NCBI GenBank assembly: GCA_020427695.1
Contig: JAGQOG010000242.1
Span: forward strand, 1-32,658
Length of the DNA: 32,658 nt
Origin: Phycisphaerales bacterium
GTDB taxonomy: Bacteria > Planctomycetota > Phycisphaerae > Phycisphaerales > SM1A02
Direction: 5' to 3'
Part shown: one piece after another, positions 7,609 through 32,658 of the stretch
How the letters are laid out: every line of letters begins with the position of its first letter
How positions within the stretch are numbered: position 1 is the stretch's first letter
Notes under the pieces: generated by a model
What the model was told of the DNA's origin: nothing
Databases searched by the model: none
What the model saw: only the letters and a program-made list of their open reading frames with translations
Translations under genes and position numbers: made by a program

Positions 7609-7644
7609 GCCCGCGTGATCGAAGGATCACCGAACCCGTCACCG

Positions 7645-8529
7645 ATGCCCCACCTCCCCGTCCTCAAGACCTACAAGCTCTTCGTGAACGGCGGATTCCC
7701 GCGCACGGAATCGGGCCGTTCCATGCCGATCGAAGATGCGCGCGGGCGCCTGGTCGCCCACCTCTGCCGTGCGTCGCGCAAGGACCTGCGTGACGCGGTG
7801 GAAGCGGCGCACGCGGCGCTCCGCAAGTGGAGCCAGGCGACGGCGTACAACCGCGGACAGATTCTCTACCGCATGGCGGAGATGCTCGAAGGACGCGCCG
7901 ACGAGTTCGTCGACGCGATTCGCTGCACGGGCGCCCGCCCGACGGGCCGGAGCCGACTCGCCCCGCGGGCCGAGGTCGAGGCCGCCGTCGAGCGGCTGGT
8001 GAGCTTCGCCGGCTGGGCGGACAAGCACCAGCAGGTGCTGGGCTGCCGAAACCCGGTGGCCGGTCCGTACCACGTCTTCTCGCTTCCGGAGCCGACTGGG
8101 GTGGTCGCCGTGATCGCGCCGGACGACCCGCCGCTCTTGGCCCTCGTCTCCCTTGTGGCGGCGCCTCTGTGCGCCGGGAACACGGTGGTCGCCCTCGCCA
8201 GCGAGCGGAATCCGGTGCCCGCCGCGGTGCTCGGGGAAGTCATGGCGACGAGCGATCTCCCCGCTGGCGCGGTCAACATCCTCACCGGTCTTCGCGCGGA
8301 GCTCCTCGAGCACGTTGCCGGCCATCGCGAGATCCGTGCCGTGTCCGCCGCCGGAGTCGACAAGGCGCAGCAGCGCACGCTCGAGCTCGGCGCGGCCGAG
8401 AACCTGAAGCGGGTGCACGTGCGCGGGGCGCAGCCCTCCGATTCGTGGCTCGACGAGCGCGAGACCGCGCCGGAGACGATCGCGCCCTTCGTGGAGACGA
8501 AGACGATCTGGCATCCGAGCGCCGGATAG
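7645..8529 (+). CDS. Short ALDH-like protein lacking the catalytic domain
   Basis: This 294-residue protein is similar in order to the first half of an ALDH: KTYKLFVNGGFPRTESGRS, VVAVIAPDDPPLLALVSLVAAPLCAGNTVVAL (matching the PWNFP..LACGNT region) and TLELGAAEN (matching LELGGKSP). It then stops, with a WHPSAG end. The catalytic cysteine segment is absent and the PWNFP asparagine is replaced by Asp, so it should not be an active dehydrogenase alone. An incomplete Rossmann-type ALDH copy following a full ALDH is the domain order of two-domain ALDH16 proteins, so this may be a separate subunit of that kind. ATG 7645 is preferred; a GTG at 7615 would add 10 residues. The gene looks intact, not decayed. 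Confidence 0.85.
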   Translation: MPHLPVLKTYKLFVNGGFPRTESGRSMPIEDARGRLVAHLCRASRKDLRDAVEAAHAALRKWSQATAYNRGQILYRMAEMLEGRADEFVDAIRCTGARPTGRSRLAPRAEVEAAVERLVSFAGWADKHQQVLGCRNPVAGPYHVFSLPEPTGVVAVIAPDDPPLLALVSLVAAPLCAGNTVVALASERNPVPAAVLGEVMATSDLPAGAVNILTGLRAELLEHVAGHREIRAVSAAGVDKAQQRTLELGAAENLKRVHVRGAQPSDSWLDERETAPETIAPFVETKTIWHPSAG

Positions 8530-29637: not shown

Positions 29638-30126
29638 ATGGGCACAAAGGGACGGGACTTCGTCGAATCCGTGGCGCGGATCATTCCGGGCTACAAGGGC
29701 TACAGCGAGCGCGAGAAGCGCCGCGACATGGACAAGCTGGTGCGGGAGACGATGGCCAAGTCCATTGATGCCGCCCGCCACGATCTCGATGCCGTGCTGG
29801 CCGACCTGGGTCGCCGCGGCGCGTTCGAGCATCTCGAGACGATCGAATCGATCCGGCGTCGCGCCGGCACCGAGGCGGAGCGGCTTCGCCGCGCGCCGGC
29901 GGGGTTCAGCGGCTTCTTCGACACGATCCAGGTCGAGACCGAACAGCTCGATCGGATCCACGAGCACGACTCGCGCCTGGGCGAACAGGCCCAGGCGTTC
30001 CAGTCCGCCGTCGATGCCCTGAAGACGCAGCTCGATGCGGAGCACCTGCAGGCCGCGGCCCAGGCCATCGAACGAATCGAGGACCACGTCCGACGTCGAG
30101 AGAACGTCATGAAGGGAGTGGAGTAA
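29638..30126 (+). CDS. Helical coiled-coil protein paired with SPFH gene
   Basis: This 162-residue protein starts MGTKGRDFVESVARIIPGYKGYSEREKRRDMDK. It is nearly all helix with heptad-like charged runs (LDAVLADLGRRGAFEHLETIESIRRRAG; EHLQAAAQAIERIEDHVRRREN). It has no signal and no membrane span, so it is likely cytoplasmic and possibly membrane-peripheral. GAGGA precedes the ATG. The SPFH-SHOCT gene follows after only 3 bases, with its ribosome site inside this gene's end, so the two should be co-translated and probably act together. I do not recognise a family by name. The arrangement recalls the Bacillus ydjFGHI operon (PspA homologue and partners with an SPFH protein). The 156 bases before it hold no other gene. 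Confidence 0.75.
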   Translation: MGTKGRDFVESVARIIPGYKGYSEREKRRDMDKLVRETMAKSIDAARHDLDAVLADLGRRGAFEHLETIESIRRRAGTEAERLRRAPAGFSGFFDTIQVETEQLDRIHEHDSRLGEQAQAFQSAVDALKTQLDAEHLQAAAQAIERIEDHVRRRENVMKGVE

Positions 30127-30129
30127 CAG

Positions 30130-31206
30130 ATGCCGAAGCTTGCCCAGATCATCGAGTACCGCGATCCGTCGGGCGACGTGATGGCCGTGCGCCTGCCTTC
30201 GACCGGCGACGGCGTCATCGAGTGGGGTTCCCAGCTCATCGTGCGCGAAGGCCAGACGGCCCTCTTCTTCCGCGACGGGAAGCCCATGGCCAAGTTCGAT
30301 CCCGGCCGCTACGTGCTCACCACGCAGGAGATCCCGATCCTGACGAAGTTCATCACGGGCCTGGTGTACGGCAAGGGCAACACCCCCTTCCGCGCCGAGG
30401 TCTACTTCGTCGCCACGCAGCTCTTCCGCGACCTGAAGTGGGGCACCCCGGAGCCGGTCTACATTCCGGATCCCGTGCTGATGCAGATCCCGGTGCGGTC
30501 GTTCGGGCGGTTCGCCGTGCAGGTGACCGATCCGGCGATCTTCGTGCCCAAGGTCGTCGGCACGCGACCGGAGTTCCGTTCCGGCGACATCGAGGACTAT
30601 CTGCGCTCGCAGTACCTCGTTTCGGCGCTGACCGACGCGTTCGCGTCGCTCCAGAAGCCGTTCCAGGAGCTTCCCCGCTACCTGCGCGAGTTGGGGATCG
30701 GCGTGCGCGGCCAGCTGGCTCCGGAGTTTGCGAGTCTCGGCCTCGACATCGTCGAGGTGAGCGTCAACAGCGTTTCGACCACGGAGGAGATCCAGGCGAC
30801 GCTGAACCGAAACGCGGCGATCGCCAGCGAGCTGGCGGCCAAGGCGCAGGGTGCTCGGATGCTGGCCCAGGCGGGGACGAGCTACCAGCAGGTCGGGATG
30901 ACCGACGCCATGAAGACGATGGCCGCGAATCCCGGCGCCACCGATGGTGGCGTGGGCGGCGGCGGCGGCAACCCGATGTCCACCGGCGTCAACCTCGGCC
31001 TGGCCATGATGATGCCGCAGATGATGGCCGAGATGATGCGCAACCCGCAGCTCAATCCGGCCGTCAATCCCGCGGGCGTGGCCACCGTGCCGACCGGAAC
31101 CGACGTCGTGGCGAAGCTGAAGCAGCTGAAGGAGCTGCTCGACGCCTCGATCATCTCCCAGGACGAGTTCGACAAGAAGAAGGCCGAGTTGATGGCGATG
31201 CTGTAG
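30130..31206 (+). CDS. SPFH-domain protein with C-terminal SHOCT (YdjI-like)
   Basis: This 358-residue protein begins MPKLAQIIEYRDPSGDVMAVRLP. The SPFH/band-7 region (about 25-225) shows SQLIVREGQTALFFRDGK, FDPGRYVLTTQEIPI, FVATQLFRDLKWGTPEPVYIPDP and LGLDIVEVSVNSVSTTEEIQATL, the pattern of YdjI (virion-core-like) SPFH proteins. A Gly/Met-rich linker (about 275-310) precedes a SHOCT motif: VAKLKQLKELLDASIISQDEFDKKKAELM (325-356). No classical N-terminal membrane anchor is seen. SPFH proteins form oligomeric scaffolds at the membrane, and YdjI works with a PspA-type protein in Bacillus envelope stress. A role in envelope maintenance is inferred. Confidence 0.88.
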   Translation: MPKLAQIIEYRDPSGDVMAVRLPSTGDGVIEWGSQLIVREGQTALFFRDGKPMAKFDPGRYVLTTQEIPILTKFITGLVYGKGNTPFRAEVYFVATQLFRDLKWGTPEPVYIPDPVLMQIPVRSFGRFAVQVTDPAIFVPKVVGTRPEFRSGDIEDYLRSQYLVSALTDAFASLQKPFQELPRYLRELGIGVRGQLAPEFASLGLDIVEVSVNSVSTTEEIQATLNRNAAIASELAAKAQGARMLAQAGTSYQQVGMTDAMKTMAANPGATDGGVGGGGGNPMSTGVNLGLAMMMPQMMAEMMRNPQLNPAVNPAGVATVPTGTDVVAKLKQLKELLDASIISQDEFDKKKAELMAML

Positions 31207-31234: not shown

Positions 31235-32104
31235 ATGCTCCACCGCCCACGACATCTCCGATTGGCTGCCGCTGCCTTGGCCATGCTCGCCACACTCGGC
31301 GGTTGCGCGGGCGGACCGCAAAATCCATCGTTCCCGCTGACCACCAAGCAGGCCGATGCGGATCTCGCCGAGATGCACGAGCATCCCGTGCCTCTCGCCC
31401 GGCCGGTGGTAGTGCTCGGCGGCTACAACGATCCCGGTGTCGCCGCCAGCACGATCCGCGATGTGCTCGAGCGTGCGGTCGGCGACGACAAGTTCGTCCT
31501 GGTGTCGTTCGGCGACGCCAAGACGTTCGCCGAGTGCCGAGCGCGGGTGATCGAAGCCGTGGAGAAGGCATATCCCGACGGCACCACGCTGCCGTCGGGC
31601 CGTCGCGAGACCGTCGAGGTCGATGTGGTCGCGAACTCGCTGGGGGGCCTGGTCGGACGGTACGCGGCGATGTGGCCCGCGGACGCCGTCGATCCCGCCA
31701 CCGACGCCGCGGACCCGACGGCCAACACCCGACTCTACGTCCGCCGCATGTTCACGCTGCTTGCACCGCATCAAGGCGCGGCGATGGCCGATCCCAAGAG
31801 CGACGACGAACTCATGCGCGACATGGCGATCGGATCGGCGTTCATCGCGATGCTCGACACCAACCTGCCCAGCGGCAACTACGAACTCGTCTCGTACGGA
31901 CGGCTCGGCGACCTGATGGTCGGCGTCGAGCACACGGCACCGCCCGGGGTCACGCCCCATTGGGTGCCCGGCCACGCGATCGAGCCAAGCCATCTCAGCG
32001 CCTTCGGCGACCGCCGCATCCTGGCGGACATCGCGCGGCAACTCCGGGGCGAACCGCCGTACACCATCGATCCCCCGTCTCCGATCCCCACCGACGGGCA
32101 CTGA
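31235..32104 (+). CDS. Lipase-like alpha/beta-hydrolase lipoprotein
   Basis: This 289-residue protein has a lipoprotein signal, LAAAALAMLATLGGC (Cys24), so it is probably anchored in a membrane facing the periplasm. The hydrolase fold shows PVVVLGGYNDPG (57-68, oxyanion strand and loop), VDVVANSLGGLVGRYAA with candidate nucleophile Ser135 (A-N-S-L-G, variant of GxSxG), and His253 in EPSHLSAFGD as a likely catalytic His. LAPHQGAAMADP matches the lid/second-strand region of GPI-inositol-deacylase and PGAP1-like lipases. Substrate is unknown; esters or lipids are plausible. It lies 28 bases after the SPFH-SHOCT gene, probably in the same operon. Confidence 0.8.
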   Translation: MLHRPRHLRLAAAALAMLATLGGCAGGPQNPSFPLTTKQADADLAEMHEHPVPLARPVVVLGGYNDPGVAASTIRDVLERAVGDDKFVLVSFGDAKTFAECRARVIEAVEKAYPDGTTLPSGRRETVEVDVVANSLGGLVGRYAAMWPADAVDPATDAADPTANTRLYVRRMFTLLAPHQGAAMADPKSDDELMRDMAIGSAFIAMLDTNLPSGNYELVSYGRLGDLMVGVEHTAPPGVTPHWVPGHAIEPSHLSAFGDRRILADIARQLRGEPPYTIDPPSPIPTDGH

Positions 32105-32125
32105 GCCATCATCCAGGAGCGACCC

Positions 32126-32452
32126 ATGGCCAAGAAGAAGCGAACTGCACGCGCCGCGGCGCGAACGACCAAGAAGACCGCCAAGCGCACGACGGCCAGG
32201 GCCTCGAAGAAGGCCGTCAAGGAGACGTCGAAGAAGACCGCCAAGAAGACCGCGCGGACGGCACCCCCGAAGACCGCCCGGAAGGCGAGCGGCAGGCAGT
32301 CCGCCAGCAAGAAGCCGAGCACCAAGAAGAGTGCGCGGAAGCCGGTTCGGAAGTCGGGCGCGAGGGCGGTTCGATCCGCACCGCCCCCGGCCGCCTCCGC
32401 GCCGCGTCCGCGGCTGTCGAAGAGCGAGCGGGCTCAGAAGGCGTTTGGCTAG
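32126..32452 (+). CDS. Histone-H1-like Lys/Ala-rich N-terminal part of an interrupted protein
   Basis: This 108-residue frame starts at ATG 32126 behind AGGAG. It is made of repeated KKTAKKT/RTARAAARTTKK-type units, like bacterial H1-type DNA-binding tails, and ends PRPRLSKSERAQKAFG before TAG 32450-32452. The downstream frame remains open and coding. Because the end reads as the start of a helical repeat, the natural protein is probably longer. The basic part would bind DNA or RNA non-specifically. It is 21 bases after the lipase-like gene. Confidence 0.7.
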   Translation: MAKKKRTARAAARTTKKTAKRTTARASKKAVKETSKKTAKKTARTAPPKTARKASGRQSASKKPSTKKSARKPVRKSGARAVRSAPPPAASAPRPRLSKSERAQKAFG

Positions 32453-32658
32453 GCCGTCGAGCGGGCGGCACAGGGATTCCTGTTCGACGCGATGACACTG
32501 TTCCGCGACGCGATCGCCGCCGATCCGAAGGGTGATCTTGCCGACGACGCCCTCTTCAACGTCGGTGGGATCGCGCTGCAGATGGGGCTCATGAAGGACG
32601 CGGAGGCGACGTTCACCGAGCTGCTGGAGGCCTATCCGGACGCGCGCATCGCCGCCAC
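32453..32658 (+). pseudogene. TPR-like continuation of the H1-like protein after an amber codon
   Basis: Continuing the same frame after TAG 32450-32452 gives AVERAAQGFLFDAMTLFRDA, then IAADPKGDLADDALFNVGGI, then a third helix pair up to the window edge. This is a TPR/Sel1-like repeat: 'A..LF..AI..DP..... ALFN.G......G..KDAE..F..LL..YP'. It has strong G/C third positions and no other stop. There is no good start just downstream: ATG 32492 is in frame but has no ribosome site and would cut the first helix. One base change (CAG to TAG) would explain the break. The 3' end is outside the window, so it is partial. Confidence 0.6.

Follow-up and report, generated by a model that had tools for sequence, protein, structure and literature searches.

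The window analyzed here is the whole of contig C111 (32,658 bases), so its edge is also the contig edge, and it comes from a draft genome, a MAG of 531 contigs that is 82.6% complete and 2.5% contaminated. Toward that edge, on the forward strand, lies a gene for an SPFH (Band_7_1) protein with a C-terminal SHOCT domain (30130 to 31206; Pfam Band_7_1, 2.3e-50; SHOCT, 2e-7), which ends in TAG and is directly preceded by a 162-amino-acid gene (29638 to 30126) with no Pfam match at an E value of 0.001 or below. A lipase/esterase-like gene follows on the same strand at 31235 to 32104, with weak matches to DUF7379 and DUF676 that fall under the cut-off. The frame after it (32126 to 32658, forward strand) opens with an ATG 6 bases downstream of AGGAG (32115 to 32119), which reads like a ribosome-binding site and may act as one. 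This frame encodes 108 amino acids, meets an in-frame TAG at 32450 to 32452, and then stays open for 68 codons up to the window edge.

The stretch upstream of the TAG (32126 to 32449) is rich in lysine, arginine, and alanine: its 108 residues include 24 Ala, 23 Lys, and 15 Arg (38 Lys plus Arg) and 2 Asp plus Glu. This is the Lys/Ala-rich, low-complexity composition typical of bacterial histone H1-like proteins, and a Pfam search of the stretch gave no match at an E value of 1 or below. The final ~14 residues, which align with the beginning of tail-less TPR homologues (described below), therefore probably belong to helix 1 of the TPR domain and not to the tail. Downstream of the TAG, positions 32453 to 32658 encode the first half of a TPR domain, assigned by Pfam and homology and cut by the contig end; these 68 residues match TPR_19 at 26.6 bits (cut-off, 25) and are 69% identical, across their full length, to a homologue at locus L008. 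The first-pass annotation had proposed that the TAG lies in frame between a basic stretch and a TPR-like domain, and the reading frame, the TPR_19 match, and the L008 homology all confirm this.

By itself, an open frame beyond a stop is weak evidence of coding in a GC-rich genome. Among coding-like ORFs within 449,878 bases of the same genome, at least 30 open codons also follow 72% of the 47 that end in TAG and 84% of the 130 that end in TGA. Within that comparison set, the mean codon score beyond the stop was -0.142 for TAG ends and -0.154 for TGA ends, while the score after the target TAG was +0.34 over 40 codons and +0.42 over 68. The 40 codons 5' of the TAG scored -0.04, codon use in the tail being unusual. 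It is the homology, rather than the open frame, that we take as the decisive evidence for a predicted coding sequence beyond the TAG.

Continuation of the frame on a second contig

When the TPR domain of the closest homologue was used to search the same genome, it matched C111, with one TAG inside the match, and the start of contig C34. The two contig ends have 9 bases in common (window 32650 to 32658 and G000:C34:1-9), and the frame is maintained across them, with the remainder of the TPR domain at G000:C34:1-205 and the joined frame stopping at a TGA (C34:203-205). The overlap by itself is too short to prove the join, and this 9-mer is present 7 times in the window when both strands are counted. 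At the junction, the length differs from that of the homologue by one residue only. Judging from homology and frame continuity, C111 and C34 appear to be neighbors in the genome. Besides the TAG, the joined frame is intact through the 108 codons that precede it and the 133 that follow.

Homologues of the interrupted gene

We searched overlapping genome sets at the level of family (181 genomes), class (397), order (400), and phylum (392); the species- and genus-level comparison consisted of one genome, the window's own. A genome_contigs search returned a single locus, L008 (CALMPF010000060.1), from a planctomycete MAG and on the same contig as G041:C60. This closest homologue, referred to here as G041, encodes a basic tail and a TPR domain in a single frame of 288 amino acids with no stop, after an SPFH gene. 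The family, class, order, and phylum searches yielded four further clear homologues (G096, G097, G212, and G861), and all homologue counts below are limited to these five. Matches in 10 other family genomes (E values of 5e-5 to 1e-3) were dropped as weak, those in 27 phylum genomes (6.8e-12 to 9.6e-9) were dropped as general TPR proteins on the basis of frame length, and the weak matches in G020 and G011 were dropped before the homologue count. Fourteen stretches of viral contigs matched a search pattern, none of them encoding a relative.

Basic tail and TPR domain form one uninterrupted ORF in two of the five homologues: G041, and G861 from elsewhere in the phylum. In G041, 152 residues precede the aligned site, and the tail contains more Arg and Ser than Lys; G861 has 42 residues before the site. 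Both are like the window tail in composition, which is the sole basis of this comparison. The remaining three (G096, G097, and G212) are TPR genes that lack the tail and begin at a start of their own, 15 to 18 residues before the aligned site, as judged from surrounding ORFs of at least 80 or at least 100 amino acids, sizes at which a very short separate tail gene may escape. TPR_6 scores above its cut-off in G041, G861, and G212.

At the aligned site, all five homologues are free of stops. The TAG is aligned with Glu in G041 and G212, Gln in G861, Leu in G097, and Phe in G096; the alignment just before the site is gapped, which makes the residue assigned to G096 and to G097 less secure than that of G041. 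An earlier suggestion that the TAG replaces a Gln codon held for G861, but not for the closest homologue or the other three. The further notion that the basic and TPR parts might always be separate genes did not survive the comparison, and the two fused homologues favor reading the halves as one protein. Over the 133 codons downstream of the TAG, 82 of 133 residues are identical to those of G041, and the TPR part has a pS of 0.54 and a pN of 0.27. The pS and pN values show constraint on a family that has been functional over the long term, and they do not date the stop.

The SPFH gene adjoins the TPR gene in G041, G096, G097, and G861 and is separated from it by one gene in the window and in G212; it was identified by Pfam in the window and G212, by similarity in G041, G096, and G097, and by reading the translation in G861. 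The SPFH-SHOCT gene of the window is 78% identical to its G041 counterpart. A second lipase/esterase-like gene of similar layout lies beyond the TPR gene of the window genome (L035 [G000:C34], 139 to 1062), and the flanking pair is apparently a tandem duplication; no such duplication was seen among the ORFs listed around the G041 homologue. In relatives that lack the TPR gene, a CxxC-rich, zinc-ribbon-like gene comes after the SPFH gene (L026, 2604 to 3773; L027, 2614 to 3753; L032, 2590 to 3741), the zinc-ribbon match in L026 being weak and under the cut-off. A CxxC-rich-like gene in G861 follows the TPR gene.

Error or mutation as the probable source of the stop

We consider it very probable that the locus holds one gene, for a protein in which a basic N-terminal tail precedes a TPR domain of about 145 amino acids, and that an isolated nonsense mutation or a base or assembly error, foreign to the design of the family, interrupts it. 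Under this reading, the stop either arose recently as a nonsense mutation, and may be a variant of the strain, or is a base that the MAG has wrong, close to where a contig of low contiguity ends.

A wrong base call, or a chimeric or strain-mixed consensus, would mean that the gene is unbroken in the living cell. Consistent with this, the MAG is fragmented, 206 bases separate the TAG from the end of its contig, the contig break falls inside the same gene, and the rest of the frame is intact. To set against this is the quality of the assembly elsewhere. We aligned 657 predicted G041 proteins (1,165,797 bases) with 449,878 bases of the window genome, taken by convenience as 62 stretches (about 11% of the genome) that include the window. 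This gave 104 best alignments with 35,488 columns and 6 stops inside alignments, the target among them. As judged by eye, the 104 alignments contain no protein-interrupting stop other than the target: those at C10:13310 and C10:13325 (columns 906 and 911 of 944), C19:2602 (column 309 of 322), and C119:18557 (column 76 of 78) fall at alignment ends, and that at C10:10408 is in an antisense frame. The same output held no split, frameshift-like pairs within 150 bases and above 35% identity, thresholds that miss weaker cases. The MAG is thus not full of such errors, and we put a local error at this site at slightly less than even odds. A codon-model survey of stops with coding signal on both sides proved too noisy for ranking cases, and the homology survey was used in its place; the target fell outside the top 30 of the codon-model survey because codon use in the tail is unusual.

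We give the same weight to a true nonsense mutation, arisen recently in the sampled population, for which one substitution is enough. The 133 undamaged codons downstream would suggest a recent event if the mutation is real, but their intactness fits an error equally well. The case is isolated in the survey and therefore looks as either a chance mutation or an error would. Were the TAG real, termination by RF1 would be expected to leave a 108-residue basic fragment with no folded TPR domain, amounting to loss of function.

Position of the stop within the TPR domain

A different reading is that the locus encodes an H1-like basic protein and a TPR protein as two natural, independent products, the second translated from its own start. 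That the TPR part can stand alone is evident from the three tail-less homologues. These genes begin upstream of the aligned site, however, which places the TAG inside the TPR part, and the predicted structure points the same way. We modeled the TPR domain of G041 (mean pLDDT, 84.7, from an alignment of 2 rows), and the model is alpha-helical, with antiparallel helix pairs, and has TPR domains as its best PDB matches. Its first helix spans residues 6 to 21 of the modeled segment, and the TAG site is residue 15. Since the site is within the first helix and the tail-less homologues start before it, the TAG is predicted to cut the TPR domain and not to sit at a domain boundary. Past the TAG, the frame offers its earliest start codon 14 codons later, an ATG (window 32492) that lies within the conserved N-terminal helices. 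With the stop inside helix 1, the next start so far downstream, and the two parts fused in two of five homologues, a pair of natural genes is improbable, and this option from the first-pass annotation lacks support.

TAG as an ordinary stop codon

Several genes indicate that TAG is an ordinary stop in this genome, as the first-pass annotation had argued. Two genes of the window, DeoC and a short Aldedh gene, are TAG-terminated, and the SPFH gene two genes upstream of the target stops at TAG, as does its G041 homologue. The Aldedh-family gene (7615 to 8529) encodes 304 amino acids, covers the first half of the Pfam profile only, and comes after a full-length ALDH gene; we considered it as a second amber case and set it aside, as its post-TAG frame does not look like ALDH by eye and the full-length ALDH lies just upstream.

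The genome also encodes a full-length RF1-like protein (G000:C156), which scores 368.9 bits, under the TIGR00019 cut-off of 423.25, and contains GGQ and PAT motifs, which we take to be marks of RF1. None of 32 typed tRNA matches has a CTA anticodon, an absence that is not proof in a genome 82.6% complete. On average, no coding signal was found beyond the TAG of the 47 other TAG-ended ORFs. Because an RF1-like protein is present, no CTA tRNA was found, other TAG codons on average lack coding signal beyond them, and no other stop in the 104 alignments was judged to interrupt a protein, general recoding of TAG is unlikely.

Programmed or leaky read-through of the amber codon, yielding a tail-only and a tail-TPR form, would account for a frame unbroken to either side of the stop and conserved downstream, but it is disfavored by the RF1-like protein, the tRNA set, the TAG-ended genes, and the absence of the stop from all five homologues, and we regard it as highly improbable. 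We give equally little credence to the arrangement that a real leaky TAG in this lineage would produce, namely, an H1-like peptide, free and able to bind polyanions, together with tail-TPR protein in lesser amount, beside the SPFH membrane protein.

Discussion

As a stop-codon finding, this case is minor, there being nothing out of the ordinary in one broken gene within a single draft genome; a literature search on premature stops in MAGs found nothing. The interrupted gene itself belongs to an arrangement in which an SPFH-SHOCT gene has a TPR gene close by, the latter with a long basic N-terminal tail in some lineages; this arrangement is apparently an uncharacterized feature of planctomycetes and relatives. 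A literature search combining H1-like, TPR, and Planctomycetes likewise found nothing. We infer that the TPR and SPFH proteins may work together and that in some lineages the basic tail may add polyanion binding. More specifically, and only tentatively, the TPR domain of intact relatives might dock a partner, perhaps the SPFH protein, while the tail would anchor that complex to a polyanion, for example, DNA, polyphosphate, or acidic lipid. The gene pair would matter if the tail does connect a membrane scaffold with DNA or polyphosphate, a link for which no test was found in the literature on H1-like proteins.

The best fold match of the G041 model is the YbgF/CpoB TPR domain (PDB 2xev; NCBIfam TIGR02795), with an E value of 1.5e-4 and a TM score of 0.67 by query. 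The TIGR02795 profile itself matches partially, at 31.2 bits, far under the family cut-off of 90.1, and, unlike for YbgF/CpoB, no Tol-Pal gene adjoins among the genes examined; what is present here is a generic TPR fold. The SPFH neighbor can be likened, by domain only, to YdjI of Bacillus subtilis, an SPFH protein of the pspA-ydjGHI operon (PMC8581546); a difference is that the term "TPR" is absent from the text of that paper. For the tail, PMC9239181 describes AlgP of Pseudomonas aeruginosa as histone H1-like, with a Lys/Ala-rich, low-complexity C-terminal domain of KPAA repeats. Compared by composition only, AlgP and the window protein are alike in having a long Lys/Ala-rich, low-complexity extension, but the extension of AlgP, as described there, is C-terminal, whereas that of the window protein is located at the N terminus, joined to a TPR domain.
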